This document shows positions 33,568-57,262 of a stretch of 64,000 bases of DNA, one piece after another. Origin of the DNA: Flavobacteriales bacterium (GTDB taxonomy: Bacteria > Bacteroidota > Bacteroidia > UBA10329). Position numbers and translations under genes: made by a program. The stretch covers positions 1 to 64,000 of the forward strand of contig JAIOYP010000067.1 in the NCBI GenBank assembly GCA_021741155.1. Direction: 5' to 3'. The first letter of the stretch is position 1. Each line of letters starts with the position of its first letter. The notes beneath the pieces were generated by a model that saw nothing but the letters and a program-made list of their open reading frames with translations, was not told where the DNA came from and searched no databases.

Positions 33568-34923
33568 ATGCAACAGACCGAAAATTCATCACCCAAATTA
33601 GAACGCACGCTCGGCCCCGTCATGCTTTGGGGCTTGGGCGTTGGCTACGTTATCTCAGGCATGTATTTCGGTTGGAACCTCGGTCTTGCCGAAGGTGGAA
33701 CCCTCGGATTGGCCATCGCCACGTTCTTCATCGTGATTATGTACGTTACGTTCACCTTCAGTTATACGGAATTGGCTTGCGCCATTCCGAAAGCTGGAGG
33801 CGCGTTCGATTATGCCGATAAAGCGCTTGGCCGCAACTGGGGATTTATGGGTGGCATGGCACAGATTATTGAATTCGTGTTTGCACCACCTGCTATTGCT
33901 GCCGCGATTGGAGCCTATTTCAACCTCTTTCTTAAGACCGAACCACTCATCCTTGAACTTGGAACTTTGAACCTTGAACTCCCGTGGATGGCGATTTTGG
34001 CCTACTTCGCGTTTACCGCACTCAACATTTTTGGAGTACGGGCTGCCGCGATGTTTGAGTTGGTCATCACCATTTTGGCTGTGGCCGAGCTGCTCATTTT
34101 CGCTGGCGTTACGCTTCCAGAATTTGAAGTAGTCAACCTTACAACTAACTCATTCCCGAACGGAATTCCCGGAATTTTTGCAGCCATTCCGTTTGCCATT
34201 TGGTTTTTCCTAGCCATTGAAGGTGTGGCAAACGTGGCCGAAGAAACCAAAAATCCACAGCGGAACGTGTTGCTTGGTTTTGGCTCGGCCATTTTCACCT
34301 TGGTCATTTTATGTGTATTGACATTCGTTTCTTCGGTTGGAGTTGGTGGCTGGGAAGCAGTGGTGTATGATGCAGAAGGAAACATGTCAGATAGCCCGCT
34401 GCCATTAGCCATTGCGCAAGTTGTAGGCAATAGTGGATGGATGTATCACCTTTTGTTGACAATCGGTTTACTTGGACTGGTTGCTTCCTTTCACGGAATT
34501 ATCCTTGCAGCAGGTCGCGCCACTTACGAGTTTGGCAGACAAGGACTTGCTCCAAAAGCACTAGGAAGAGTGCACTCTAAGTTCAAAACACCTGCAAATG
34601 CGTTAATCGTAAACATGATTATTGGCATCATTGCATTGATGACAGGCAAGACGGGCGAAATCATCACCATTGCATGTTTCGGTGCCTTGGCGCTGTATAT
34701 CATATCGATGATTTCGTTCTTTAAGCTGAGAAAAAACGAACCCGACATGGAACGTCCTTTCAAGGTTCCCTTCTACCCTCTTTTCCCAGCATTGGCATTA
34801 ATTATTGCTAGCATTTCGATGGTGGCCATGATTTATTACAATCTACAACTGGCATTTATTTTCTTTGGGCTTATGATTGGCTCATTCATCGCATACAAAC
34901 TGACTTACGGTAAAACTTCATGA
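33568..34923 (+). CDS. eat: ethanolamine permease (APC family)
   Basis: A 451-residue transporter with about twelve membrane helices. The N-terminus PVMLWGLGVGYVISGMYFGW, AIPKAGGAFDYADKALG and IEFVFAPPAIAAAIGAY match the ethanolamine permease branch of the amino acid/polyamine/organocation family closely in my memory. The gene overlaps the glutamine-synthetase-like gene by 4 nt (ATGA), so substrate import and gamma-glutamylation are probably made together. Confidence 0.82.
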   Translation: MQQTENSSPKLERTLGPVMLWGLGVGYVISGMYFGWNLGLAEGGTLGLAIATFFIVIMYVTFTFSYTELACAIPKAGGAFDYADKALGRNWGFMGGMAQIIEFVFAPPAIAAAIGAYFNLFLKTEPLILELGTLNLELPWMAILAYFAFTALNIFGVRAAAMFELVITILAVAELLIFAGVTLPEFEVVNLTTNSFPNGIPGIFAAIPFAIWFFLAIEGVANVAEETKNPQRNVLLGFGSAIFTLVILCVLTFVSSVGVGGWEAVVYDAEGNMSDSPLPLAIAQVVGNSGWMYHLLLTIGLLGLVASFHGIILAAGRATYEFGRQGLAPKALGRVHSKFKTPANALIVNMIIGIIALMTGKTGEIITIACFGALALYIISMISFFKLRKNEPDMERPFKVPFYPLFPALALIIASISMVAMIYYNLQLAFIFFGLMIGSFIAYKLTYGKTS

Positions 34924-36287
34924 ACGAAAAAGAACTTTCACGCGAACACATCCTGAACGAGGTTCGCAACTCATCTCACAACAAAATAAAGGTTGCCGTT
35001 ACCGATATTGATGGCGTGCTGCGTGGCAAACTCATGCGCAAAGACAAGTTCCTTTCGGCAGTAGAAGGTGGTTTCGGATTCTGCGATGTGGTCTTCGGAT
35101 GGGATAGCGGAGATGTGGCTTATGATAACGTGAGTTACACTGGTTGGCACACTGGATATCCAGATGCCCAAGCGCGAATTGACCTCAGTACCTTCCGACT
35201 TGTTCCGTGGGATGACGATATTCCATTTTTCTTGGCAGATTTTGTGAATGCGAAGGAAAAACCGCTTGGCGTTTGTCCACGAAGTTTGCTAAAAACCATT
35301 AAAGCCAAATCTGAGAAAATGGGCTACAGACCATTCTTCTCTCAAGAATTTGAGTGGTTCAATTTTGCTGAGAACGCAGATGATCTTCACGCACGCGGTT
35401 TCACAAAACCGCAGCCGCTTACTCCGGGTATGTTCGGGTATTCGCTTTTACGCAGTTCGCAGGAGAAGGAATATTTCAACGACATTTTCGAGTACATGGA
35501 TCAGTTTGATGTACCAATTGAAGGCTTGCACACCGAAACCGGTCCAGGCGTTTACGAGGCAGCCATCATGTATGGAGATATTTTGCAATCTGCCGATAGA
35601 GCTGTCCTTTTTAAAGGTGGCGTGAAGGAAATTGCTCATTTACACGGAGTCATTCCAACGTTTATGGCGAAGATTAGCCCTACTCTACCTGGTTGCAGCG
35701 GCCACATTCATCAAAGCCTTTGGGATGAAAAAAAGAACCTTTTCTCCGATGCCAAAGGCCAAAAAGGCATGAGCAAATTGATGGAAAGCTACATGGCTGG
35801 GCAGCTTGCTTGCTTGCCTTACATTTTGCCAATGATTGCTCCAACCATCAACAGCTACAAGCGTTTGGTAGAAGGTGCTTGGGCTCCAACTACGCTCACG
35901 TGGGCAGTTGACAACAGAACGGTTGCTCTGCGTTCACTTCCAGCAGGAGAAAAGTCCTGCCGATTGGAAACACGAATCGTTGGTTCAGACACAAATCCAT
36001 ACATCGCTATGTCTGCTTGTTTGGCAGCTGGTTTATACGGAATTGAGAATAAATTAAAACTAACACTTCCTGAAACGATAGGAAACGGCTATGCAGATGC
36101 AGGTGCTGGAAGGCTGCCTAAAAACCTTTGGGACGCCACACAAGCCATGAAGAACTCAGATATTCCGAAGCAATTGTTCGGAGAAGAGTTCGTGAATCAC
36201 TTTGTAGCCACCCGCGAGTGGGAATGGCGAGAATTCTCTAAGGCTGTTACCGATTGGGAGACCAAGCGGTATTTTGAGATTATTTGA
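34920..36287 (+). CDS. glutamine synthetase-like gamma-glutamyl ligase
   Basis: 455 residues of the glutamine synthetase fold. The N-terminal beta-grasp has VTDIDGVLRGKLM. The catalytic domain has the Glu-containing SQEFEWF and ETGPGVYEAA, GCSGHIHQS, and NRTVALRSLP with ETRIVGSDTNPYIA. Sequence style is that of GlnA-like amine ligases (PuuA, GlnA3/GlnA4 type) rather than of housekeeping GS. Co-translation with an ethanolamine permease suggests the substrate is ethanolamine, giving gamma-glutamylethanolamide; this is inferred. A strong terminator follows. Confidence 0.8.
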   Translation: MNEKELSREHILNEVRNSSHNKIKVAVTDIDGVLRGKLMRKDKFLSAVEGGFGFCDVVFGWDSGDVAYDNVSYTGWHTGYPDAQARIDLSTFRLVPWDDDIPFFLADFVNAKEKPLGVCPRSLLKTIKAKSEKMGYRPFFSQEFEWFNFAENADDLHARGFTKPQPLTPGMFGYSLLRSSQEKEYFNDIFEYMDQFDVPIEGLHTETGPGVYEAAIMYGDILQSADRAVLFKGGVKEIAHLHGVIPTFMAKISPTLPGCSGHIHQSLWDEKKNLFSDAKGQKGMSKLMESYMAGQLACLPYILPMIAPTINSYKRLVEGAWAPTTLTWAVDNRTVALRSLPAGEKSCRLETRIVGSDTNPYIAMSACLAAGLYGIENKLKLTLPETIGNGYADAGAGRLPKNLWDATQAMKNSDIPKQLFGEEFVNHFVATREWEWREFSKAVTDWETKRYFEII

Positions 36288-36302
36288 CCTTATAAGATGA
36301 GA

Positions 36303-36342
36303 AAAAAGAAAGCCGCCCCGATAAATCGAGGCGGCTTTCTCA
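36303..36342. terminator. strong bidirectional terminator
   Basis: AGAAAGCCGCC (36307-36317) pairs with GGCGGCTTTCT (36330-36340) around CGATAAATCG, with an A-run on the left and T-rich sequence on the right. It sits between convergent genes. Confidence 0.85.
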
Positions 36343-36358
36343 TTCAAAATTGTTTGAA

Positions 36359-37618
36359 TTACTTGCTTTTCAACAATTCAATCTCCTTTTGTAATTGTAG
36401 TATCATTTCTTGTTGCTCCTGCATCCCTTTTATCAGTACAGGAACTAACTCGGTATATGACACCATTCTAAGGTCAGTAATTCCGTTTCCATTCGAATCA
36501 TCACCGTTAATGGTAACAAACTCAGGAAACACTTCTTCCAGCTCTTGCGCAATAAGACCATAGCACTTGGCCTCATCATCAGACTGCGTTTTGAAGTTGT
36601 ACTTGCTTGGATTAAGAAGCATAATTTTACCTAACATTCCATCCAAACTTTCAATGTTCTTCTTAAGTCGCTTGTCTGACACCGAAGTATATACTCCAGT
36701 AGAATTATTGAATCCACCTCTGTCAGCCCCATTAAAGTACAATTTAAGGTCGCTGGTAGATTGGGAAACATAAATAGTCCATTTATCATTAGTGCTTGTT
36801 TGCTCCAGTTCCAATCCTCCAGCACCACCACCACCAGTAAACTGGTCTTGTACCAAATGAAGGTTTCTTATAGGTGCAGCTGTACCGATACCTACGAGAC
36901 CAGCAGCATCAATACGCATTCTTTCAGCGTTAGATGTTCCAAGTTTCAGATAATTGGCCTCCCACTGCCAAAGGTGTGCTCCACCATCGGCTTCTACACC
37001 GATTGAGGCTCCATCTGCGCCAGTTACTCCTGTGGTCGTATTTCCAACCTGAATGTAGGTCGAAGATGCAGATGCGCCAGCCACCTGAAGGCGTCTGGTT
37101 GGACTGGACGTGCCGATACCTATACTGCTACCGTTGTTGTAAAGGAATGAATTGGCCGCCCAAGCCGTACCGTCATGCCTAAGGGTCTGACCACTTGTGC
37201 CTGTTGCCAATGGACCAGCGGTTTCTGCATAAAGAGCGTACGGAACTGCAAGCAATTGCGAGGTTCCCATATCAGCATAGGCCGTTCCTCCTGCTGGATC
37301 CATTTCTACCTGGACAAAGAAGTCATCTGCACCCCAACCTATTGAGCCGAAGGTTCCAGACACCACGGTTCCTCCCCCAAGAACAAGATCAAAGAGACCA
37401 AAATCATTCGTGGTAACTGCATGTGTTTCCTTATATACCGTTGTACCTGCCGCTGTACCGCTATGAACCGTTATCCGAACGCCTACAGCTTGATTATCAA
37501 GTACTTCACCTAGGGCATTTCGAGCAACGCCTTGGTAGTTGAATTTCTGCCATGTTTGCGCCATCGAAATGGAAGCAACAGCAAAGAACAATAGTGTTAT
37601 TAAAAGTATTTTTTTCAT
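36359..37618 (-). CDS. secreted fibre-like protein with S74 chaperone domain
   Basis: 419 residues: a signal peptide (MKKILLITLLFFAVASISMA), a globular Bacteroidota domain (FNYQGVARNALGEVL), and fibre-type repeats (SIGIGTSSPTRRLQV near 165, LVGIGTAAPIRNLHL near 241). The C-terminal peptidase S74 / endosialidase chaperone domain begins at SDKRLKKNI (314-322, with the Ser/Lys residues of the self-cleavage site). The last 30 residues form a likely coiled coil. S74 domains guide trimer folding and then cut themselves off, so a trimeric surface fibre is expected. Confidence 0.85.
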   Translation of the reverse strand: MKKILLITLLFFAVASISMAQTWQKFNYQGVARNALGEVLDNQAVGVRITVHSGTAAGTTVYKETHAVTTNDFGLFDLVLGGGTVVSGTFGSIGWGADDFFVQVEMDPAGGTAYADMGTSQLLAVPYALYAETAGPLATGTSGQTLRHDGTAWAANSFLYNNGSSIGIGTSSPTRRLQVAGASASSTYIQVGNTTTGVTGADGASIGVEADGGAHLWQWEANYLKLGTSNAERMRIDAAGLVGIGTAAPIRNLHLVQDQFTGGGGAGGLELEQTSTNDKWTIYVSQSTSDLKLYFNGADRGGFNNSTGVYTSVSDKRLKKNIESLDGMLGKIMLLNPSKYNFKTQSDDEAKCYGLIAQELEEVFPEFVTINGDDSNGNGITDLRMVSYTELVPVLIKGMQEQQEMILQLQKEIELLKSK

Positions 37619-37636
37619 AATTAATGTATTTAAGGT

Positions 37637-38128
37637 TTATGGTTGAATTTTTTGAATGTTGAATGTTGCTTGTAGACCTGCTTTGGTTACAAGCCTAAGT
37701 AAATATGTGCCATTGGCAATTCCTGTAAGACTAAGCTGACTGAGCGTGCTGCCCGATGTCAATTCATCAGACAAAACCATTCTACCAGCTGAATCATAAA
37801 GACCCAACGTCACATCATTCTGCTGTCCTTCCAAACGGATGTTCAACAGTTGGTCGGTCGGATTTGGATAGACCGAAACGCCTTCCAAAGCCATTTCCGT
37901 TTCATGAATTCCAGTTACCGTTATATCCGGTTGATGGAATCCTTGAGTGAGAATGTTACTTCCATTATCATGGGTATTAATAACGGGTTCTCCGATAGTC
38001 CAGCTCAATTGAGTTGATCCATTTGAGAAGTGCGTTCCAGCAGATGCCACAACATCAGGCGAAATGCTTTGCGCATTCGCCCAACAAGTAGCACCCAGAC
38101 AGAAGCATACAATTGTTAGTATTTTCAT
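37637..38128 (-). CDS. small T9SS sorting-domain protein (copy 1)
   Basis: 163 residues: a signal peptide (MKILTIVCFCLGATCWANAQ), a short conserved N-domain (VVASAGTHFSNGSTQLSWTI, then ILTQGFHQPDI), and a type A T9SS C-terminal sorting domain (VSVYPNPTDQLLNIRL ... GTYLLRLVTKAG). It should be exported through the outer membrane by the Type IX system and anchored or released. Nearly the whole chain is paralogous to the next gene. The start at 38128 is set by the signal peptide. Confidence 0.85.
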   Translation of the reverse strand: MKILTIVCFCLGATCWANAQSISPDVVASAGTHFSNGSTQLSWTIGEPVINTHDNGSNILTQGFHQPDITVTGIHETEMALEGVSVYPNPTDQLLNIRLEGQQNDVTLGLYDSAGRMVLSDELTSGSTLSQLSLTGIANGTYLLRLVTKAGLQATFNIQKIQP

Positions 38129-38329
38129 GTGTTTTAGATTTACACCACAATGTATCAATTATATTGTTGTAGTTGCAATAAACTCCCACCAAATATTTAA
38201 ATACTTATCGACTAGGAAACCTTGTGCAAACGAAAAGCACACAAGATCACATTAAGAAGTTCCACAGCGAGGCTTAAACAAAAAAAAGCCCCCGATAAAT
38301 CGAAGGCTGCACTTTTCAAGTTTGATATT

Positions 38330-38824
38330 CTACTGAGCAACCCCCATCTTCACCACCTTGTGTGTCGTGTTCATTTTACCATCAACGCTTTGCATACGCA
38401 CTAGGTAGTTTCCAGTTGCAACCTTGTTCATTGGCAACACATACTTGGTTTGGTAAGCTTCAATCTTATCTGAATGGATAAGTTTTCCGCCCATATCAAA
38501 CAATTGAAGAGTAATGTCTGCCTCGTTGTTTCCCAACTCGATATTCAGCAATTCTGAAGTTGGGTTTGGATATAAGTTCAAACGGATATTAGCCAATGTT
38601 TCTTCAACAGAAGTAACTGTCAATTCCGTCTGATGAAAACCCTGCGTGAGGATGTTTGTCCCATTATCATAGGTATCAATCATCACCTCTCCAAGCGTCC
38701 AGCTCAATTGAGTAGTTCCGTTATCGAAATGCTCTCCAGCACTTGCAATAACTTGTGGTTCGATGGATTGTGCCATTCCAAAAAATGGAAGTGTGGCAAG
38801 CGAAAGGGTGGTTAAAAACTTCAT
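38330..38824 (-). CDS. small T9SS sorting-domain protein (copy 2)
   Basis: 164 residues: a signal peptide (MKFLTTLSLATLPFFGMAQ), the same N-domain as copy 1 (VIASAGEHFDNGTTQLSWTL, then ILTQGFHQTEL) and a T9SS sorting domain (LNLYPNPTSELLNIEL ... GNYLVRMQSVDGK). The copies have diverged throughout, so the duplication is not recent. The N-domain is too short for an enzyme; its function is unknown. The 201 bp between the two genes hold only a weak hairpin near 38290-38310. Confidence 0.85.
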   Translation of the reverse strand: MKFLTTLSLATLPFFGMAQSIEPQVIASAGEHFDNGTTQLSWTLGEVMIDTYDNGTNILTQGFHQTELTVTSVEETLANIRLNLYPNPTSELLNIELGNNEADITLQLFDMGGKLIHSDKIEAYQTKYVLPMNKVATGNYLVRMQSVDGKMNTTHKVVKMGVAQ

Positions 38825-38868
38825 GTCTTTTGTTTTGATGTTACGAATATACAGATCAATGCGTGGAT

Positions 38869-38876
38869 TAGTTTTG
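38869..38876 (+). promoter_or_regulatory. -7 box (TAGTTTTG) ahead of the Fe-type alcohol dehydrogenase
   Basis: A perfect TAnnTTTG, 33 nt before the ATG at 38910. No TTG lies at the usual spacing upstream, so the promoter call is tentative. Confidence 0.4.
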
Positions 38877-38909
38877 CAACTCACATTAAATCACATCAAT
38901 TTTGTCAAA

Positions 38910-40052
38910 ATGAGTGTCGTACAATTCAATTTTCCTACAGTAATCCGCTTCGGATCAGGTGCGGTAAGAGAACTTTCAGGTCATTTAAAAGAGCAAGGAA
39001 AACTGCGACCACTGGTTGTAACAGACCCAATAGTTGCCACACTTCCTTTCTTTCTTGAGATTATCGATGACCTTAAAAAGGCTGGCCTCACTCCTACTGT
39101 TTATGCCGAAATGCACAAAAATCCCGTAAAGTCGGATGTACTTTATGGGAAAGCGGCATTTGCTGGCGCTGATTGTGATAGCATTGTCGGAATTGGCGGT
39201 GGCGTTGGGTTAGATGTAGCACGCGCCATTGCCTTGGCCATCAATCATCATCGCGATTTGTTTGACTATGATGATTTAATCGGAGGTGATCAATATGTGA
39301 CTGAAGATGTTCCTTATTTTGTGACTGTTCCAACTACAAGCGGAACAGGAAGTGAGGTTGGCCGAAGCGCCATTATTGCTGATGATGTAACACATCAAAA
39401 GAAAATTCTGTTCTCACCAAAATTATTGGCAAGCCGCGTTTTTGCAGATCCAAGCTTGACTTTCGGTCTTCCACCTTTTGTTACGGCCGCAACGGGAATG
39501 GATGCGTTGACGCACAACATGGAAGCCTACGTAGCGAAGAACTATCATCCAATGTGCGATGGAATTGCTTTGGAAGGAATTAAGTTGATTGGAAAATCAA
39601 TCGAAAAAGCCACTCATGATGGACAAAACGAACAAGCGCGTGCCGATATGATGCTTGCAAGCATGATGGGCGCAGTTGCATTCCAAAAAGGATTAGGCGT
39701 GGTGCATTCGCTGGCACATCCGATGTCGCAGTTGTTAGACACACACCATGGTTTGGCAAATGCGGTCAATCTTCCTTACGGAATGAAATTCAACTTAGAA
39801 GGATTTGAAGACCGATTTGAGGCTATGGCTCATGCTTTCGGGATGAAAAATGGAAACGGCATTCAATTGATTGACGAGCTTTTCAAGCTGAATGAGCGAT
39901 TGGGTCTGCCTACCAAATTGTCAGCCGTTGACGTAAAAATCGAACATCTTGACACCTTAGCAGATCTTGCTTTTGCAGATTTCTGCCATCCAAATAACCC
40001 AAAACCTGTCTCAAGAAATAATTTCTACGAACTTTACCGTTCGGCACTCTAA
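38910..40052 (+). CDS. iron-containing alcohol dehydrogenase
   Basis: 380 residues of the group III (Fe-dependent) alcohol dehydrogenase family. The NAD loop is GIGGGVGLDVA (94-104, usually GGGSxxD), PTTSGTGSEV is at 141-150, and metal-ligand candidates are Asp 198 and His 202 in GMDALTHNME, with further His residues in HSLAHPMSQLLDTHHG. The start at 38910 removes an N-terminal extension antisense to the T9SS gene. The substrate is not readable from sequence. The local context suggests gamma-glutamylethanolamide or 4-hydroxybutyrate as candidates. Confidence 0.88.
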   Translation: MSVVQFNFPTVIRFGSGAVRELSGHLKEQGKLRPLVVTDPIVATLPFFLEIIDDLKKAGLTPTVYAEMHKNPVKSDVLYGKAAFAGADCDSIVGIGGGVGLDVARAIALAINHHRDLFDYDDLIGGDQYVTEDVPYFVTVPTTSGTGSEVGRSAIIADDVTHQKKILFSPKLLASRVFADPSLTFGLPPFVTAATGMDALTHNMEAYVAKNYHPMCDGIALEGIKLIGKSIEKATHDGQNEQARADMMLASMMGAVAFQKGLGVVHSLAHPMSQLLDTHHGLANAVNLPYGMKFNLEGFEDRFEAMAHAFGMKNGNGIQLIDELFKLNERLGLPTKLSAVDVKIEHLDTLADLAFADFCHPNNPKPVSRNNFYELYRSAL

Positions 40053-40086
40053 TTGATAAAGGAATTTTAAACTAAATCTATTACTA

Positions 40087-40521
40087 ATGAAAAACACAGT
40101 TATTGCCCTTGTTGCGTTGTTCGCAACTTCAACTTTTACCTTTGCTCAAGATAAAGCAGCAAGTGGTGCAGCGTTCAAATTTGAAACGGAAACTCTTGAT
40201 TACGGAACAATTGAAAACGATTCTGATGGTAATCGTGAGTTCAAATTCAAGAACGTTGGTAACGAACCATTAATCATTTCGAACGCGAAAGGATCTTGCG
40301 GATGTACAACTCCCGAATGGCCAAAAGAGCCAATTGCTCCAGGTGCTTCGTCTAGCATCAAAGTTCATTATGACACAAAAAGAACTGGTGCTTTTGAAAA
40401 GACTGTAACACTTGAGTCTAATGCCGTTGAATCTTCAAAGGTTATCCGAATTAAAGGTGTGGTAAATGCGCCTGCGCACGACCCAAATGACGGAACAGAT
40501 CATTCTGGTCACGGTCACTAA
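40087..40521 (+). CDS. secreted DUF1573 protein
   Basis: 144 residues: a signal peptide (about 1-20), then one DUF1573 (ASH/MSP-like) domain with FETETLDYGTIENDSDG, FKNVGNEPLIISNAKGSCGC and VHYDTKRTGAFEKTV, and a His/Asp-rich tail (DHSGHGH). DUF1573 is abundant in Bacteroidota envelopes but has no defined function. It lies between the alcohol dehydrogenase (34 nt) and the CoA transferase (0 nt), so it is probably co-transcribed. A second DUF1573-like domain occurs in the VWA protein nearby. Confidence 0.85.
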   Translation: MKNTVIALVALFATSTFTFAQDKAASGAAFKFETETLDYGTIENDSDGNREFKFKNVGNEPLIISNAKGSCGCTTPEWPKEPIAPGASSSIKVHYDTKRTGAFEKTVTLESNAVESSKVIRIKGVVNAPAHDPNDGTDHSGHGH

Positions 40522-41781
40522 ATGAGTGTCTCAGCAGAAAATGCTGTGAAAAATATTAAGTCGGGCGATTGCATTTTCATTCACTCGGCTGCTGCTGCGC
40601 CCCAGGAGCTTATTCGGAAGCTGTTTCAGCGGAAAGATGAGCTTAGGGGCGTAACTATTTATCAGATTCACACAGAGGGAATTGCGCCTTATGCAGATGA
40701 GTCCGTGGAGGCTTTTACTGTCAAGTGTCTGTTCGTTGGGCCAAACATTAGAAAGTCCATTCAACACGGCCACGGGAGTTATATTCCTGTCTTCTTGAGT
40801 GAAATACCAAGATTATTTAGAGACAGAGTATTACCTGTTGATGTTGCGCTGATTTCGGTTTCACCACCTGACGAGCACGGATTTTGTTCGTTGGGGCCAT
40901 CAGTAGATGTTTCCTTAGCTGCTGTATTAGCGGCCAAAACAGTCATTGCTCAGGTCAATAAATACGTTCCACGCACCCATGGCGATGGTTTGATTCACAT
41001 AAGCAACATCAATCATCTGGTAAAACACAACGAACCAATTGCTGAAGTCAAGTCAGAGGAACTATCGGCTTCTGAAGTAGCAATAGGTAGACATATTTCA
41101 GAATTGGTTGAAGATGGTGCTACGCTACAAATGGGAATTGGAAACATTCCTAATGCTGTTTTAGCTTCTCTCAATAATCATAAAGACCTCGGCATACACA
41201 CCGAAATGTTCTCAGATGGAATTCTTCCTTTAGTTGAAAAGGGAGTGATTACTGGTAAATACAAGAAAAAACATCAAGGTAAAATCGTTTCATCGTTCGT
41301 AATGGGAACAAGAGCCATTTACGATTTCATTGACGACAATCCGTTGGTGAACATGCTTTCGTCCGAATACGTGAACAACACGCGAATCATTAGTCAGAAT
41401 CCGAAAGTTACAGCTATCAACAGTGCCATTGAGGTTGACCTTACGGGACAGGTCTGTGCTGACAGCATTGGACATAGAATCTATTCGGGCGTTGGTGGAC
41501 AGATGGATTTTATTCGCGGAGCTTCTCTTTCTGAACGTGGAAAACCAATTATTGCGCTGCCATCAACCACCAAACGAGGTGAATCTAAAATTGTGCTTAC
41601 ACTGAAGCCTGGTGCGGGCGTAGTTACCACGAGAGCGCATGTTCACTACGTGGTTACGGAATTCGGAGCCGTAAATCTTTATGGCAAAACATTGGAAGAA
41701 CGTGCCAAACTTCTCATCGGTATAGCGCATCCTCAACACAGGGAACAGCTAGAAAGAGATTGGTACGCAATGACCAAATAG
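40522..41781 (+). CDS. acetyl-CoA hydrolase/transferase family protein
   Basis: 419 residues of the acyl-CoA transferase group that includes acetate and 4-hydroxybutyrate CoA transferases. The catalytic Glu candidate is in IHTEMFSDG (near 229), and the CoA-binding loop is YSGVGGQMDFIRGA (near 325). The C-terminus EFGAVNLYGKTLEERAK is typical. The ATG follows the preceding stop directly. With the Fe-type alcohol dehydrogenase it could act in 4-hydroxybutyrate metabolism, or simply activate an organic acid; I cannot decide. Confidence 0.85.
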   Translation: MSVSAENAVKNIKSGDCIFIHSAAAAPQELIRKLFQRKDELRGVTIYQIHTEGIAPYADESVEAFTVKCLFVGPNIRKSIQHGHGSYIPVFLSEIPRLFRDRVLPVDVALISVSPPDEHGFCSLGPSVDVSLAAVLAAKTVIAQVNKYVPRTHGDGLIHISNINHLVKHNEPIAEVKSEELSASEVAIGRHISELVEDGATLQMGIGNIPNAVLASLNNHKDLGIHTEMFSDGILPLVEKGVITGKYKKKHQGKIVSSFVMGTRAIYDFIDDNPLVNMLSSEYVNNTRIISQNPKVTAINSAIEVDLTGQVCADSIGHRIYSGVGGQMDFIRGASLSERGKPIIALPSTTKRGESKIVLTLKPGAGVVTTRAHVHYVVTEFGAVNLYGKTLEERAKLLIGIAHPQHREQLERDWYAMTK

Positions 41782-43473
41782 TTACTTCAGCGACCGCAGT
41801 TTTATCTCTTCTGCCAACAACTCTGTTGGATCTTCATTATCTCTAACCTGAAGAAAACTGCCTTCTCCAAGGTCAGCAAGCTTTTTCATTAATCGACCAG
41901 CTTCCTTGTCTTCTCCGAAGCCGATAATAGACAGTACAATTCCTTTGTCAGAATTATCCTTTACCATCTGAACGGCTTCGTTTTCCGAGAATTTGGAAGA
42001 ATTGAATTTCCCGTCAGTGGCAATAATGAGTTGGTTATTTCCTCCTTCAATAAGCTGCGTCTCTAAACTCTCGTATGCAGTTTCCATTCCTTTCACACCA
42101 TTCGTATATCCATATGGCCGAAGGCTATCTACAAGCTCAAGAATAGGCTGATTATCGGCTACTGGCGTTGGCGGAAGCAATACCCACGAATCTGAATTGT
42201 AAGCAATCATAGTGAGTACATCCTCACCTCGCAGCATCATTACTAGCCTACGAATGGATGATTTAAGCTTATCCATCTTTCCTTCATCATTCATCGAACC
42301 AGAAACATCCAGCAACAACAACACATTATTTGGTCGGTATTTTTCGGTTGAGAATTCAGGTTCTGGTTCAACGGCAATTTCCTTCTCAATTGGAGCGGAT
42401 TCAGCTTTAGCCAAGGCAGCTTCAACCTCTTCTTCGATTGGCGATGAACGATTATCGATTATCGATTGGCGATTTTCCTCATCCAACTGGTCATTGGTGG
42501 TTATTCCGAAATCGAACGATTCTTCAGCAGGCTCTTCTGATATCTGAAATCTGTCATCTGAAACCTCAAACACTTCTTCTGCTAAAACTTCATTGGTGGT
42601 TATTCCAAGGCTTGCGCTGAGCGAGGTCGAAGTGTCAATTTCTTCCAATGGTCGAGCACTTTCTTCCTCCAAAAGGACATTGGTCGTAACTCCCAAATGC
42701 TCAGATTCTGGCGTCTCAAATCTTTCGTCTGAAACCTCTTTAGGTTCTTCCCAACGATTATCGACAGAAGCAATAATTTCCTCCTCGTTGAATTCAGGTT
42801 CCAAACTTTTTCGATTCAAATAAATGACCTGCGTTCTATCTCGTTTGGTGAACACAATCTCTTGCTCGGCCTTTTCATAACCCTCCTTTGATGCGACTGC
42901 TATGTATTTGTCGGGCTCAATCCAATTGACGGCCACACCATCCAAATTGGTTCCATTGATGGCTTTCCGTATTCCACGGTCATAAATCTCAACACTCGCA
43001 TTTGGAATCGGTCTATTAGTGGCAGCATCCACAACCTGAACCACATTAGGTTCTGAAGACCGAACTGGTGCTGTTTCATGAAATGACGGACAAGCAGTCA
43101 ACGCATTTGCGTAGATGCTCCTAATGTTCCCCTTCATCGTCAACTTTTCAGCCTTGTTCGAAGCGTTTGAGTAAACCTCAACCGTTCTTGAAAACGAACC
43201 CGTTTGACTCGTGTAATAAAGAATTTCAATCTCACCTGTTTCTCCTGGTTGAATAGCTCGGTTTGGATAACGCACCAACACTTCACGGTCGTGATGTTGC
43301 GGCAAGAACATCAACCTCTCATTCCCAGAGTTTGTAAACTTGAAAGTTGCTGGTGGACTGTTCCAGTCACCAATGCTTCCGAAATTGACGGTAGTCGTTT
43401 CCCACCTGACGTTTTGAGCCCAAAGTCCAAATGGCAATTGTACCAAAATAAGTATGAATAAAAACAGTCTCAT
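41782..43473 (-). CDS. secreted VWA-domain protein with DUF1573-like N-terminus
   Basis: 563 residues: a signal peptide (about 1-20), a DUF1573-like domain (21-118, FGSIGDWNSPPATFKFTNSG), a carboxypeptidase-regulatory-like beta domain (145-225, VVDAATNRPIPNASVEIYD), and a low-complexity acidic linker. The linker has three copies of a short repeat (LGVTTNVLLEEE at 260, LGITTNEVLAEE at 289, FGITTNDQLDEE at 322). A VWA domain follows, with a perfect MIDAS DVSGSM at 389-394. It is probably a surface adhesion or assembly protein. It ends directly against the CoA transferase stop, tail-to-tail. Confidence 0.85.
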   Translation of the reverse strand: MRLFLFILILVQLPFGLWAQNVRWETTTVNFGSIGDWNSPPATFKFTNSGNERLMFLPQHHDREVLVRYPNRAIQPGETGEIEILYYTSQTGSFSRTVEVYSNASNKAEKLTMKGNIRSIYANALTACPSFHETAPVRSSEPNVVQVVDAATNRPIPNASVEIYDRGIRKAINGTNLDGVAVNWIEPDKYIAVASKEGYEKAEQEIVFTKRDRTQVIYLNRKSLEPEFNEEEIIASVDNRWEEPKEVSDERFETPESEHLGVTTNVLLEEESARPLEEIDTSTSLSASLGITTNEVLAEEVFEVSDDRFQISEEPAEESFDFGITTNDQLDEENRQSIIDNRSSPIEEEVEAALAKAESAPIEKEIAVEPEPEFSTEKYRPNNVLLLLDVSGSMNDEGKMDKLKSSIRRLVMMLRGEDVLTMIAYNSDSWVLLPPTPVADNQPILELVDSLRPYGYTNGVKGMETAYESLETQLIEGGNNQLIIATDGKFNSSKFSENEAVQMVKDNSDKGIVLSIIGFGEDKEAGRLMKKLADLGEGSFLQVRDNEDPTELLAEEIKLRSLK

Positions 43474-43521
43474 TCAGCGATAAAGTTAACGAACGCGACT
43501 CGCGTGGATGTATTGCGAATG

Positions 43522-43529
43522 TATCTTTG
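43522..43529 (+). promoter_or_regulatory. -7 box (TATCTTTG) of the puuD-like/ALDH operon
   Basis: A perfect TAnnTTTG ending 4 nt before the ATG at 43534, so the mRNA should be leaderless or nearly so. The -33 element is not clear. Confidence 0.55.
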
Positions 43530-43533
43530 CAGC

Positions 43534-44283
43534 ATGATTAAAATCGGAGTTTCTGCGTGCTTTTTTCATCCTGACCTGAACAGGGCAACCTTCGGGCCGA
43601 AAACACTTTCGTACCTCGAAAACGACATGGCTGTTTATGTTGCACGACCAAACGTGATGCCTGTTCTCATTCCTGAATTGCCGAAAGCTGAGAAGCTGGC
43701 AATGATTAAGGAAATGGATGGATTGGTGTTGCAGGGCGGAGTGGATTTAGCTCCTGAATCTTACGGAGAGCAACCAATTGGAAGATGGCTCGGAGATCGC
43801 ATTCGAGATGAATACGAACTTGAATTGATGAAGCTTTTTCTTGATGCTGGAAAACCAGTTCTCGGTATTTGCCGAGGTTTTCAAGTGATGAATGCATATT
43901 ACGGAGGAACACTTTTTCAGGACATCGAAACACAACGACCAGAAAGCATTAAACACCGTGATGCGACTGAATACGACCACGTACATCATGGCGTACGCTT
44001 TGAAAAAGGTTCATTTTTCGAATCGCTATATGGCAATGGGAAAAATCCAATGGTGAACTCCGTACATCATCAGGCAGCAAAGGATATTGGCAAAGGACTT
44101 ATTCCCCAGGCTTATTGCGCTGAAGACGGAATACTGGAGGCATTCATTCATGAGAGTGCTGAACCAGGTAAGATTATGGGCGTGCAGTGGCATCCAGAAT
44201 TTTTCCATACAATGGGCGACAAACTCATTAACCCATTCAAAATCATCGATACATTTCTAACATTCGCTAAAACAGATAAATGA
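43534..44283 (+). CDS. PuuD-like gamma-glutamyl hydrolase (class I amidotransferase fold)
   Basis: 249 residues, peptidase C26 family. The nucleophile elbow GICRGFQ has Cys 113, QGGVDLAPESYGEQP is near 67-81, and the His/Glu of the triad are in WHPEFF (220 and 222). In the Puu pathway such enzymes hydrolyse gamma-glutamyl-GABA. Here the local genes suggest gamma-glutamylglycine, an inference. ATG 43534 is chosen because the upstream in-frame ATG lies before the -7 box. The stop overlaps the ALDH start as ATGA. Confidence 0.87.
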   Translation: MIKIGVSACFFHPDLNRATFGPKTLSYLENDMAVYVARPNVMPVLIPELPKAEKLAMIKEMDGLVLQGGVDLAPESYGEQPIGRWLGDRIRDEYELELMKLFLDAGKPVLGICRGFQVMNAYYGGTLFQDIETQRPESIKHRDATEYDHVHHGVRFEKGSFFESLYGNGKNPMVNSVHHQAAKDIGKGLIPQAYCAEDGILEAFIHESAEPGKIMGVQWHPEFFHTMGDKLINPFKIIDTFLTFAKTDK

Positions 44284-45641
44284 AAATCATCAATCCCGCC
44301 ACAGAGGCGGTCATTAAGGAAGTGGCTGAAGACAACGCAACTTCAATTCAAACCAAGTTTGAAACCGCGAAATCCGCTCAGAAATCGTGGGCAAAAGTTC
44401 CGCTAAAAGAGCGTATCGCTTGTATCGTCAAGTTCAATGAATTGATGTTGGCCAATGCAGATAAGATTGCGGCTGACCTCACTTCCGAAGTGGGAAAACC
44501 ATTGCAACAAGCCAAAGGCGAAATCAATGGTGGCCTTGGTCGAAGCAAATTCTTTGTGGAAAACAGCGAAAAATACCTTGCAGAGGAATGGATGGTTTCG
44601 GAAGGTGCAACTTGTGAGAAAATCACTTATGAACCGCTCGGTGTCATCGCAAACATTTCAGCATGGAACTATCCAATCCTAGTTGGTTTCAACGTGTTCA
44701 TTCCTGCCTTGATTGGTGGAAACGCGGTGCTTTACAAACCATCAGAATTCAGCACACTTACGGGGTTGAACATGGCAGAAATGCTGTGGAAAGCTGGAAT
44801 TCCTAAGGACGTTTTCCAAGTGGTTATCGGAGCTAAAGAAGCTGGCGAAGCTTTGCTTAACCTTCCTTTGGATGGTTATTTCTTCACCGGTTCGTACGCC
44901 ACAGGGAAATACATTGCCGAACGCGTTGCAGGAAAACTTGTTCCTGTTGGATTGGAGTTGGGAGGAAAAGACCCAATGTATGTATGTGAAAATGTAGATG
45001 TAAAGGCCGCAGCTGCCGCGGGTGTTGAAGGGGCTTTCTACAACAACGGCCAAAGCTGTTGCGCAGTGGAACGCATCTATGTTCACGAGAACATTTATGA
45101 TGCTTACGTTTCAGCTTTTATTGAAGAAACGAAGTTGATGAGATTGGGTGACCCGACTGCGGAAGACGTTTTTCTTGGTTCATTAACACGCCCTCAACAG
45201 TTATCTGTTTTGGAAGATCAAGTGAAAGATGCAGTTGAGAAAGGTGCCTCACTCCTTTTCGGTGGGAAACGTGTAGATAAAAAAGGATTCTATTTCGAGC
45301 CGACCGTTTTGACCAACGTGAATCACTCGATGAAAGTTATGATGGACGAAAGTTTCGGTCCTATTATCGGAATTCAAAAAGTAAAAAACGATGAGGAAGC
45401 CGTCAAATTAATGCTGGACACGCAGTACGGACTAACGTCAGCAGTATACACACAAGATGAAGACCGTGCCTTAGATTTGATGCAACAGCTTAACTCAGGA
45501 ACGGTTTACTGGAACTGCTGCGATCGTGTAAGTCCAAATATCCCTTGGAGCGGCCGTGGTGCTTCTGGTTTAGGCTCTACCCTGTCTCATGCTGGAATTA
45601 GAACCTTCGTTCAGCCAAAGAGCTATCACTTGAGGAAGTAA
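44280..45641 (+). CDS. NAD(P)-dependent aldehyde dehydrogenase
   Basis: 453 residues, ALDH superfamily. Catalytic residues are present: Asn 130 in SAWNYP, Glu 226 in LELGGKDP and Cys 260 in NNGQSCC. FFTGSYATGKY (near 201-211) forms the cofactor loop. It is co-translated with the PuuD-like hydrolase, which suggests that the aldehyde is gamma-glutamylated, as in the Puu pathway where PuuC precedes PuuD. Specificity is not readable. Confidence 0.9.
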   Translation: MKIINPATEAVIKEVAEDNATSIQTKFETAKSAQKSWAKVPLKERIACIVKFNELMLANADKIAADLTSEVGKPLQQAKGEINGGLGRSKFFVENSEKYLAEEWMVSEGATCEKITYEPLGVIANISAWNYPILVGFNVFIPALIGGNAVLYKPSEFSTLTGLNMAEMLWKAGIPKDVFQVVIGAKEAGEALLNLPLDGYFFTGSYATGKYIAERVAGKLVPVGLELGGKDPMYVCENVDVKAAAAAGVEGAFYNNGQSCCAVERIYVHENIYDAYVSAFIEETKLMRLGDPTAEDVFLGSLTRPQQLSVLEDQVKDAVEKGASLLFGGKRVDKKGFYFEPTVLTNVNHSMKVMMDESFGPIIGIQKVKNDEEAVKLMLDTQYGLTSAVYTQDEDRALDLMQQLNSGTVYWNCCDRVSPNIPWSGRGASGLGSTLSHAGIRTFVQPKSYHLRK

Positions 45642-45711: not shown

Positions 45712-48700
45712 TTACTGCTTGATTATCTTCTGAACCGTCATTTGATTATCAGCATAAATACGAAGGAAGTAAACTCCGTTAGGAATGTCTGTCATGTCGT
45801 ATTGCTTGCGCAAGCTATCGGTGTTACCCAAACGGCTATCTAACCAAACTTGCTTGCCAACCATGTCGAAAAGTCCAACGGTTATATCCATTTGACGAGC
45901 CATCTCAACCTCAAGTGTAAACTGTCCGTTGTTTGGATTAGGATAAACGCTCACATTGCCTTCAAAATTAGCCTCTTCAATTCCAACACAACAAGTTAAT
46001 TCAAAGTTCGGAGAACAGTCAGAACATCCATTGGCATCGGTAACGCACACGTGGTAGTTTCCACTTCCTGTTGGATTTATAGCGTAAGCTGCACTCGTGG
46101 CTCCCGGAATTGGATTTCCATTATGAAACCACTGGAATCCTGTAAAGTCTCCCGGATTGGTTACTGTAAGTAAACCAGCATCTTCACTAACAATTGGTTC
46201 TGGATTCCAAACGGTTACCGTAACTGGAGCTACCTGTAGCATACTGTCGATACAACCATTACCATCCATAAGAATCGGCCAATAATCTCCAGACTCAATT
46301 ACTGTCACGCTTTGCGTTGTAGAACCACTGTTCCATAAGTAAGAAGCATATCCTGGTGCAACACTCAAATTAACCGAACCACCAACGCAGAACTCAAGCG
46401 GACCGTCAGCAGTGATTGGTGAAGCAGTCATCGGTTCATTCATAATTAGTTCTACCTCATTTGTGCCTTCACAACCATATTGGTTGGTCACAGTAAGAAC
46501 TATGATTCCTGACTGTCCCCATTCTGTCGTTTGAGTATTATCACCCGTTGTCCAAGAATATCCATCGTATCCTGGTTCAGCAGAAAGGATAACTGTATTT
46601 CCGATGCAAAACTCTACAACCCCAGCTGGCGTTATAATTGGAGTAGGAATTGGATTCACAGTAACCACTATGACGTCAGTTCCAATACAACCGTTTGCAT
46701 CCACTACTGTCACTTCATAACCAGCGCTTTGGCTTGCAGAAGTAGTTTGTGTAATGTCCCCAGTCGGTGTCCAAGCGTACGAAGCATATCCTGCTCCAGC
46801 ATCTAACGTGATTAAACAAACCGTTGTGTCGTTTCCTAGGTCAACTTGAGGAGCCTGAAGAACGTTGTACACAGCTGAAGCAGTAGCATCACAGCCATTA
46901 GCGGCTTCGTAAGTATAATCAACGTTAGTAGCTCCCGGCCCCGCTAGGTCTGGGAAGAAAAGATCTCCGATAATGGAGAAGTTACCATACACAACTGTGT
47001 AATCTCCACCCACTGGGCTACCACCCATAAATTCAACGAAATCCTCGTTAGAACAAGCGTGCGATGGCAAAGTAAGAGTAACAACAGGTGTTGGCAGGAC
47101 ATTATATTGAAGTCCTGGGCTTGTAACCGAACAGTTGTTGGCATCAGTACCAACCACTGCTACCGTTTGACCATCCTGTAATGCTGAGTTTGTGTATGGA
47201 TTTGTGCTTCCAGCAGATACTCCATCAACAAAAAACTGATATGTGCTTGCACCAGATGCAGTGAATTGCACCGGAGTTCCCTCGCAAATTGTCAGGCCAG
47301 ATGGAGTCGCTGCAAGTGCAATCACCAATGTTCCAGGATCGCTGAGCGAGACGGCATCAGTAGATTGGCATCCATTTACGTCTGTAACAGTTACTGAATA
47401 TTGTCCAGCGCTCAATCCTACTGCAACTGGAGTTGTCTGAGCACTTGGTGTCCATAAGTAATCATAGGCAGGTACGCCACCGATAGTCAAAGCATTTGCA
47501 AATCCATCGGATGCTCCACATGATGAAGGATTGACGAAAGAGGTTATACCTACTTGAATTTCGGGATGTACTAGGAATGTTGCTGGTGCGCTTGTTGCTG
47601 CACAAAGCTGAGTATCAAGACCCATCACCGCAATGATGTCTCCATCAACCAGCGTGTCAGAAATGTATGGATTCTGAGTGCTTACTTGGAATCCATTCAC
47701 ATAAAACACATAAGTAGTTGCTCCTGAACCCGTAAAAGTGACTGTTTCTCCACCACAGATTGTGCTGTTGGTGGCATCTGAAGTAAGGGTTACAGGGCTT
47801 GAACCGACATCACTAAGTGACTGACTGATAACCGCTGTACATCCAGCATCATCCGTTGCCGTTACGAAGTACGAACCTGCATTCAAATTTGCTACAGTTG
47901 GTCCTTGCGGTCCGTGACTCCACTGATAGGTGTATCCAGGTGTTCCGCCAGTAGCGGCCGAAGTTATTACACCGTCAGTCGCACCGCAAGAAGTTGGATC
48001 AGAAAAGCTAGTGATGGTTACCGTAGGACTTGGGTTAACCGTTACTGTCATTCCAGCACTTTCCACATCACAAAGATTACCGTCCGTAGCGATAACAGAA
48101 ACTACCTGACCGTTGGTTAATGTAGAAGTAACAAATACACTAGTCGAACTTGGAAGGCCTACAGGAACTCCATCCACTAGGAATTGATAGACCAAACCAC
48201 CAGAAGCGAAGAATGAAATGCTCTGACCAACACAAATGGTCGTGTCCGCATCATTACACACAAGCAAGACGGTAGGACCTGGATTAACAATCGGATAAAT
48301 GATGTTGCTTGTGGCAGTACAGTTATTACCGTCAGTCCCTGTGGCGGCAACTGATTGGCCATCTGTCAAAGTTGCAATAATGAAAGGGTTTGTAGTAGAT
48401 GTTGGCTGACCATCAACATAAAACTGATATGTATTAGATCCAGATGCTGTGAACACAATACTCTCACCAGCACAAATCTCATTATTAGGGTCTTCGCTGC
48501 TAGTCATAGTGACAGGCTGTGCACCCGGATCACTTAGAGCATATGTTTCGCTTGAAGAACAACCATTATCGTCCGTAACGGTCAGGAAATATGGAGCCGC
48601 TGGCAAGCCAGAAATGTTTGGTGTGACTTGACCATTACTCCATAGATAAACATAAGGAGGCAAGCCACCAGACACTAATGTTTGAATTACACCATCAGAC

Positions 48701-50511: not shown

Positions 50512-50670
50512 TTGCTATAGGGGTTTTGGAAAATCTTTTTCAACACTTTAAAATCAACCGTCTAAATTAATTTTTTTTAACACTAAAATGATAAACCCAA
50601 AAAATGCGGCTTTAGGTTCGAACTCACTGGTGCTAAATAAAAACTTAAAATCAAAATTCATTCAAGTCAA
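50512..50670. other. intergenic, nothing recognised
   Basis: A 159-bp AT-rich gap between the first and second giant genes (same strand). I see no convincing hairpin, -7 box or repeat. Confidence 0.5.
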
Positions 50671-57111: not shown

Positions 57112-57122
57112 TTGAAAAAGGA

Positions 57123-57165
57123 GTAACCCTATTATTTGTCCACAGTGGGCAAATAATAGGGTTAC
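57123..57165 (-). terminator. 43-nt near-perfect hairpin between giant genes
   Basis: GTAACCCTATTATTTG and CAAATAATAGGGTTAC pair fully, extended by a T-G wobble and CCAC/GTGG around a single-base loop. On the minus strand it is followed by TCCTTTTT, fitting a terminator of the upstream giant gene. It lies only 12 nt before the next ATG, so it could also act in that gene's 5' region. Confidence 0.7.
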
Positions 57166-57262
57166 GAAAATACCTAATTTCTACAACTGACGATAATCCC
57201 TCGACCAACTGTCACATTTACCTCACGACAAAGAGCCGTCTTGGAAGCTAGATGTCTGCCAG

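Follow-up and report, generated by a model that had tools for sequence, protein, structure and literature searches.

Scattered genes for a probable gamma-glutamyl route of ethanolamine assimilation in Flavobacteriales correspond to a conserved five-gene operon

Ethanolamine is derived from a lipid that is a major component of membranes, and bacteria draw carbon and nitrogen from it. The locus described here raises the question of whether a permease, a ligase, an alcohol dehydrogenase, a hydrolase, and an aldehyde dehydrogenase lying apart from one another encode a single route for its assimilation. The window (the whole 64,000-nucleotide stretch of Flavobacteriales DNA that was analyzed) contains all five ORFs, each open, where the original prediction had placed them, and all on the forward strand. 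An APC-family ethanolamine permease (EAT; 33568..34923) and a glutamine synthetase (GS)-like gamma-glutamyl ligase, the proposed gamma-glutamylethanolamide synthetase (34920..36287), overlap by 4 nt. An iron-type alcohol dehydrogenase (Fe-ADH; PF00465/PF25137), the proposed gamma-glutamylethanolamide dehydrogenase, stands by itself (38910..40052). A C26 (PuuD-like) hydrolase, the proposed gamma-glutamylglycine hydrolase (43534..44283; PF07722, Peptidase_C26), and an aldehyde dehydrogenase (ALDH), the proposed gamma-glutamyl-aminoacetaldehyde dehydrogenase (44280..45641; PF00171), again overlap by 4 nt. The five genes of the window thus form three separate blocks.

Genes coding for one Peptidase_S74-domain protein and for two Por_Secre_tail proteins separate the first two blocks (36359..38884, reverse strand; Pfam), and a VWA/DUF1573 gene (41782..43473, reverse strand; PF07610, PF00092) lies between the second and third. 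These gap genes, on the strand opposite to the pathway genes, were absent from the original prediction, as were the genes for a DUF1573 protein and an acetyl-CoA hydrolase/CoA-transferase-family protein (40087..41781, forward strand; PF07610; PF02550/PF13336) close behind the Fe-ADH gene on the same strand. A homolog of the VWA/DUF1573 gene occupies the matching position in loci L034, L036, and L037, and in L036, from a genus-mate, the gap from ligase to Fe-ADH is only ~650 bases.

To place this arrangement in context, we compared ligase loci from named genomes, using the best 80 of 547 confirmed loci, many of them broken by contig ends. Among these best 80, the order permease-ligase-FeADH-PuuD-ALDH was fixed and on one strand in 51 loci, and nine further loci carried the last four genes only, in the same order; the alcohol dehydrogenase, ALDH, and hydrolase genes thereby all followed the ligase gene in 60 of the 80. 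The four-gene core was absent in 20 of the 80, for some of which, not all, contig ends account. An ORF-based count, in which starts were set at the first possible codon, gave 50 operons with median gaps of -4, 15, 4.5, and -4 nt (the last from 46 operons) and individual gaps of up to 1.8 kb. The ligase ortholog anchors the operon and ALDH orthologs form its last gene. Exactly five families were widely shared in the best 80 of 547 loci (in 80, 65, 59, 58, and 54 loci), and the sixth occurred in five; within 7 kb and among ORFs of at least 100 aa, no regulator or other further family was common to more than five of these 80 loci. Outside Bacteroidota, the intact operon was found twice, in a locus labelled Proteobacteria and in another labelled Bdellovibrionales. 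Some genomes retain the genes in scattered form, with all five far apart on one contig (G209) or on five contigs (G049). A chance association, suggested by the loose spacing in the window, was rejected, since relatives have the operon in compact form and some genomes keep all five genes even when scattered. The window holds a broken-up copy of an operon that is intact in many relatives. The original prediction had named beforehand a lack of conserved linkage as the outcome that would count against it, and it survived with linkage of all five genes in 51 of the best 80 of 547 loci.

Co-occurrence was then assessed across 395 genomes of the class, a set that overlaps with the 80 named loci (e.g., L151/L050 and L137/L042, pairs whose contigs match in length). 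Ligase and Fe-ADH were both present in 38 genomes, ligase alone in 13, Fe-ADH alone in 3, and neither in 341, by thresholds set after the tables had been seen. The association exceeds chance, with 38 of the 41 Fe-ADH genomes having the ligase (Fisher p ~3e-38, with genomes treated as unrelated). The association has exceptions: Fe-ADH was missing at E 1e-90 from 13 of 51 ligase genomes, including one of the same genus that is 95% complete (G008), and among 45 genomes with the permease (identity at least 55%), nine were without Fe-ADH and eight without the ligase. PuuD and ALDH were searched in 80 chosen genomes out of the 395; all five genes were present in 32 of these 80, from 15 families, with EutB in none of the 32. 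EutB and EutC had no match in the window genome (estimated 94.7% complete), in which the Eut ammonia-lyase pathway was accordingly not found. EutB was likewise found in none of the 41 Fe-ADH genomes and none of the 45 permease genomes (identity at least 55%); these absences are not significant by themselves (p 0.23 and 0.39) because EutB is rare (16 of 395 genomes).

Taken together, the five genes probably encode one route of ethanolamine assimilation through glutamate tagging, as judged from sequence comparison, here split into three blocks. The permease would import ethanolamine, and the GS-like ligase would join it to glutamate at the expense of ATP, giving gamma-glutamylethanolamide. The Fe-ADH would oxidize the hydroxyl group of this amide to the aldehyde, the ALDH would convert the aldehyde to gamma-glutamylglycine, and the PuuD-like hydrolase would release glycine and return glutamate. 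Ethanolamine would in this way be used with neither an ammonia-lyase nor a microcompartment. The presence of an alcohol dehydrogenase where the Puu pathway has PuuB is in keeping with a substrate that is an amino alcohol. The conserved operon and a Trp at the Glu327 position of the ligase support the original prediction of gamma-glutamylated ethanolamine, although ethanolamine as the substrate, all the intermediates, and the order of the steps are what we infer from sequence.

Next, we focused on the evidence for the substrate. The window permease scored 440 bits against the TIGR00908 ethanolamine permease family (cut-off 381.75). Among the best 80 of 547 loci, a permease gene leads the operon in 51, placing a predicted ethanolamine transporter within the cluster. 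The same cut-off was passed by all six other permeases tested, namely two from five-gene operons, one from a second cassette, two beside EutB, and one from Streptomycetaceae. In the permease tree, from which ORFs outside 410-500 aa and duplicates were excluded and which carries a long-branch warning and modest branch support, the window permease grouped with those encoded in gamma-glutamyl-ligase cassettes and not with the three eutBC-linked ones. Permeases of this group are found in a second cassette as well (L086, L088), which has an Eto/GlnA4-like ligase, SDR, ALDH, and GATase. Of 11 more distantly related permeases in the family, 10 came from genomes that have EutB. The same chemistry acting on another amino alcohol (alaninol or 3-aminopropanol, for example) to give the matching amino acid is an unlikely alternative. 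The amine of the ligase is not fixed by its sequence, a plasmid gene annotated ipuC (gamma-glutamylisopropylamide synthetase), with SDR, GATase, and ALDH genes nearby, is 40% identical to it, and its clade has members in other gene settings; however, the permease score above the TIGR00908 cut-off, the permease group shared, at modest branch support, with the Eto/GlnA4-like cassette, and the distant relatives in EutB genomes all argue for ethanolamine.

The ligase tree gave long-branch warnings for PuuA, GlnA, and IpuC and excluded ORFs outside 400-520 aa, short duplicate loci, and L058. The window ligase belonged to a 51-row clade (support 100/99), and the Eto/GlnA4-like rows formed a separate 12-row clade (100/94) that did not include it; identity to Eto-type and second-cassette ligases was ~35%. 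Members of the window's clade were also found in 10 class genomes close to genes for a HAD hydrolase and an uncharacterized protein, with no adjacent permease or Fe-ADH (EutB was present in 7 of these 10), and in two Alphaproteobacteria beside aminotransferase and polyamine-type ABC genes. Because of these other settings, clade membership does not fix the amine.

The Fe-ADH matched 16 NCBIfam families, in each case below the cut-off, and its alignment retained Asp/His motifs that we take to be metal ligands. Its top match was 4-hydroxybutyrate dehydrogenase, although at 344 bits against a cut-off of 500. Together with the nearby CoA-transferase-family gene, which adjoins Fe-ADH in L037, this match could point to 4-hydroxybutyrate or similar metabolism, with amines concerning the permease-ligase pair only. 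Such a reading is very improbable, as the Fe-ADH gene directly follows the ligase gene in relatives (median gap 15 nt in 50 operons among the best 80 of 547 loci), whereas a CoA-transferase-like gene was present in one of these 80 loci (L168, on the opposite strand) and was not found in the genus-mates L034 and L036. The CoA-transferase-like gene was rejected as a pathway member on the same count.

The hydrolase matched 16 NCBIfam families and the ALDH 43; scores were below the cut-off for all 16 of the former and for the 25 listed of the latter. The Cys and His/Glu motifs of the hydrolase align with E. coli PuuD, and the Glu and Cys motifs of the ALDH with PuuC; we presume both sets to be catalytic. 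Many operon PuuD-like proteins are only 29-40% identical to that of the window, and distant ones also occur in four genomes that lack the set of FeADH, ligase, and ALDH (G015, G022, G023, and G173). The window ligase matched PF00120 at 312 bits as well as four NCBIfam families, reaching the cut-off of none of these four. Its metal, glutamate, and ATP positions were mostly conserved among those compared, with Pro257 at the N264 position as an exception; in the alignment, Phe172 takes the Y179 position, Trp321 the position of Glu327 in ammonia-using synthetases, and Asp69 the D50 position, the last counting against the proposed pathway. The E. coli Puu pathway follows the same gamma-glutamylation logic and shares PuuA-, PuuC-, and PuuD-like families with the window, but it acts on putrescine with a PuuB oxidase and a PuuE aminotransferase and has no alcohol dehydrogenase (L129). 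The least credible alternative would make the ligase a glutamine synthetase, whether ordinary or auxiliary, or an enzyme acting on putrescine in a Puu cluster, as its PF00120 domain, the Asp at the D50 position, the PuuD- and PuuC-like neighbors, and partial scores of 225 bits to GlnA and 198 bits to gamma-glutamylputrescine synthetase might suggest. It was rejected, since both scores lie below cut-off (429 and 650), Trp stands at the E327 position, the window genome has two further synthetases (a type III GS and a GlnII-like GS), and the conserved partner is an alcohol dehydrogenase.

The proposed ethanolamine route was compared with described systems. In Streptomyces coelicolor (SCO1610-1615), the cited passages report that GlnA4 was assayed and is required for growth on ethanolamine, and propose a ligase, a dehydrogenase, an aldehyde dehydrogenase, and a gamma-glutamylglycine hydrolase (PMC6529630), i.e., the same steps and products as for the window, although the first dehydrogenase there is a short-chain dehydrogenase rather than an Fe-ADH. 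The ligase of Embleya L134, a Streptomycetaceae locus with the GlnA4-type gene set that stood in for the GlnA4 sequence, was in another clade than that of the window. For Phaeobacter sp. MED193, the cited passages give the steps of the Eto operon as named enzymes and describe Chromohalobacter salexigens and Agrobacterium tumefaciens C58 as having closely related genes (PMC10132767). The Phaeobacter gene order was also seen on a plasmid of Ruegeria; there, the position of the gamma-glutamylethanolamide dehydrogenase is taken by an iron-containing alcohol dehydrogenase with 40% identity to the window Fe-ADH, as matched by order and not by Phaeobacter sequence. As far as these passages describe it, the Eto operon shares with the window the ligase, the ALDH, and, in Ruegeria, the iron-containing alcohol dehydrogenase, but has a TRAP transporter instead of an APC permease, an N-formylglutamate-amidohydrolase-type instead of a C26 hydrolase, a ligase of the other clade (35% identical), an RpiR regulator, and another gene order. 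A Legionella lytica plasmid cluster (GS-ALDH-FeADH-GATase; L123) shares Fe-ADH and a GATase-fold hydrolase with the window, and its ligase (48% identical) lies inside the wider clade of the window; its Fe-ADH and ALDH are closer to the Eto type (52 and 55%), its GATase differs, and no ethanolamine permease was found beside it.

The scheme of the original prediction is therefore not new in its steps, which the cited passages already give for Streptomyces and Phaeobacter; the version predicted here differs in ligase clade (~35% identity), hydrolase, and phylum. A review passage includes Flavobacterium in a list of genera with reported ethanolamine use and names no route, so that use of ethanolamine within the phylum has precedent as well. 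In the open-licence papers searched, no description of the route in Bacteroidota was found. It seems reasonably likely that Bacteroidota have a widespread ethanolamine-to-glycine route whose ligase clade and C26 hydrolase were recruited independently of the Eto and GlnA4 systems, some members having a fused hydrolase-ALDH. Genome surveys scored on eutBC would count these organisms as ethanolamine-negative. The five-gene operon would offer a ready marker and a specific role for genes that broad family names alone leave unspecified, and it is intact in cultured species suited to testing, for example the soil isolates Pedobacter soli DSM 18609 (L178) and Chitinophaga niastensis DSM 24859 (L183).

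Finally, the PuuD-like and ALDH domains formed a single protein in six of the best 80 of 547 loci and partially in a seventh (L141 is one locus with such a fusion), alongside 68 separate PuuD-like ORFs, and both domains were confirmed by Pfam in the two fused proteins checked. If the proposed route holds, the fused protein would carry gamma-glutamyl-aminoacetaldehyde through to glycine and glutamate on a single polypeptide. The hydrolase homologs in these fusions are 31-37% identical to the window hydrolase.

The five open reading frames were all located on the plus strand at the positions of the original prediction: the permease and the GS-like ligase within 33568-36287, the Fe-type alcohol dehydrogenase (Fe-ADH) from 38910, and the C26 (PuuD-like) hydrolase and the aldehyde dehydrogenase (ALDH) within 43534-45641. 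The permease-ligase and hydrolase-ALDH pairs each overlapped by 4 nt, and Fe-ADH was located between them. The window permease exceeded the cut-off of the curated ethanolamine permease model; the other four proteins matched their families but fell below every curated NCBIfam cut-off shown. Genes for a DUF1573 protein and a CoA-transferase-family protein (40087-41781) directly followed Fe-ADH on the same strand, and homologs of both were found near the Fe-ADH of L037, a locus from the window's genus. Genes for a Peptidase_S74 protein and two Por_Secre_tail proteins on the opposite strand separated the first pair from Fe-ADH, and one for a VWA/DUF1573 protein preceded the second pair. The minus strand at 45712-63529 carried three very long ORFs rich in repeats (1599, 2146, and 2088 aa).

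The five window genes are a scattered version of an operon conserved in other genomes. Of the 395 genomes of the window's class, 51 contained a complete ligase ortholog, or long pieces of one, with at least 53% identity, and six more gave matches at 35-36% identity. The order permease, ligase, Fe-ADH, PuuD, and ALDH on one strand was seen, for example, in loci L050, L051, L056, L062, L064, L067, L082, and L083. The linkage in relatives anticipated by the original prediction was conserved: among the ligase loci of named genomes (the best 80 of 547 confirmed), 51 carried all five genes in that order, including L191, where ALDH is split in two. The last four genes were present in nine, ligase and Fe-ADH in five (three also with the permease and one with a divergent Fe-ADH), permease and ligase in five, and the ligase without any of the other genes nearby in 10, one of which had a 26% Fe-ADH match at a distance of 5 kb. 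Clustering of ORFs from these best 80 of 547 loci gave five families, in 80, 65, 59, 58, and 54 loci; the next most common family occurred in five. The median intergenic gaps in the 50 operons identified from their ORFs were -4, 15, 4.5, and -4 nt (largest, 1770 nt). PuuD-like and ALDH domains formed one ORF of ~700 codons in six of the same best 80 of 547 loci and a partial ORF in a seventh, alongside 68 separate PuuD-like ORFs; Pfam detected both domains in the two fusions checked, one from the isolate Terrimonas pollutisoli (L141). The fused enzymes would carry out both final steps of the proposed pathway.

Stages of operon break-up were observed in the window's genus: ~650 bases separated ligase and Fe-ADH in L036, the arrangement in L034 and L037 resembled the window, and the blocks were on different contigs in genomes G004 and G008. 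All five genes were kept far apart on one contig in G209 and on five contigs in G049. Six ligase loci among the best 80 of 547 (L161, L165, L176, L187, L188, and L199; 61-66% identity) came from MAGs labeled Proteobacteria, Bdellovibrionales, Bacteriovoracaceae, and Gamma- and Betaproteobacteria, and five of them carried the four-gene core or more.

Fe-ADH was found in 41 of the 395 class genomes, 38 of which also encoded the ligase (counts uncorrected for kinship); the others were two incomplete genus-mates and G326, which had a 35% ligase in place of the ortholog. PuuD and ALDH were searched in 80 chosen genomes, within which ALDH and a PuuD-like protein each accompanied Fe-ADH in 38 of 41, again uncorrected for kinship. 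The predicted co-occurrence of the five families in Bacteroidota without eutBC was supported: when distant PuuD-like proteins are included, 32 of the 80 chosen genomes had all five genes (15 families; uncorrected for kinship), and no Fe-ADH genome of the 41 had EutB. Counter-evidence came from 13 ligase genomes without Fe-ADH, among them G155 with an Fe-ADH piece at a contig end (L047), and from distant PuuD-like proteins in four genomes without the gene set. Fe-ADH was not found at the threshold used in G008, a 95%-complete genus-mate.

Judging from sequence, the operon very probably encodes a pathway that handles an amino alcohol through gamma-glutamylation; ethanolamine is the most likely one. 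An alcohol dehydrogenase replaces the PuuB oxidase, which fits an amino alcohol substrate. Six other permeases were scored against the ethanolamine permease model and all passed; two belonged to five-gene operons, one to a second cassette, and one to a Streptomycetaceae cluster, and two lay beside EutB. In the permease tree, three eutBC-linked permeases formed a separate group (100/99), and the second-cassette permeases nested among those of five-gene operons with modest support. The second cassette (L086:9273-14791 and L088:9200-14801, same class) comprised an Eto/GlnA4-like ligase, SDR, ALDH, GATase, and ethanolamine permease, a gene set like that of Streptomyces, and its ligase grouped with Eto-type ligases of Ruegeria and relatives. 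Among the 395 class genomes, EutB was also absent from all 45 with a window-type permease, and it was present in 10 of 11 with a more distant permease (41-50%). The absence of EutB from the Fe-ADH and window-type-permease genomes had the expected direction but, EutB being rare, did not reach significance on its own (p 0.39 and 0.23). On an Aminobacter plasmid (L135:5143-13314), Eto-type genes lay beside bhcABC of the beta-hydroxyaspartate cycle, which uses glycine; this agrees with glycine being the end product.

By gene content, the window system belongs to a known pathway and would work like it. The S. coelicolor study presents a four-step scheme to glycine and glutamate, with the ligase step shown and later steps predicted (PMC6529630), and the Phaeobacter study describes a rise in proteins named for each step during growth on phosphorylethanolamine (PMC10132767). 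A Ruegeria plasmid operon with the Phaeobacter order ends in a gene for an iron-containing alcohol dehydrogenase. In contrast, the window ligase shared 35% identity with both the Ruegeria Eto-type and second-cassette ligases, and its sequence places it in a separate clade outside the Eto/GlnA4-like one. A review lists Flavobacterium among genera reported as ethanolamine users, so its use in the phylum is not in itself novel; searches of open-licence papers found no description of the five-gene operon in Bacteroidota.

Sequence features point away from ammonia or putrescine as the amine substrate of the window ligase. At the positions compared with GlnA, this ligase kept the metal, glutamate, and phosphate residues except N264 (Pro257), with Trp replacing Glu327 and Phe replacing Tyr179. 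The GlnA4 study describes E327, D50, and Y179 as not kept in the amine ligases PauA7 and GlnA4 (PMC6529630); the D50 position was Asp in the window ligase alignment. The window genome encoded two other glutamine synthetases, GSIII and a GlnII-like protein (386 versus the GlnII cut-off of 500).

Ligases of the window's clade also occurred in other settings, and clade membership thus does not fix the amine. A sister group within this clade came from ten loci (L065, L066, L068-L073, L076, and L077). Close to the ligase, which lies at about 9.3 kb in every locus, all ten encode a HAD-family hydrolase and a 345-aa protein lacking any Pfam match, and in six a small gene of one family adjoins the ligase gene (GGACT/AIG2-like in L068, the one scanned). 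EutB was present in seven of these ten genomes, and the loci perhaps represent a different gamma-glutamyl pathway. In two Alphaproteobacteria, a window-clade ligase was found with aminotransferase and polyamine-type transporter genes.
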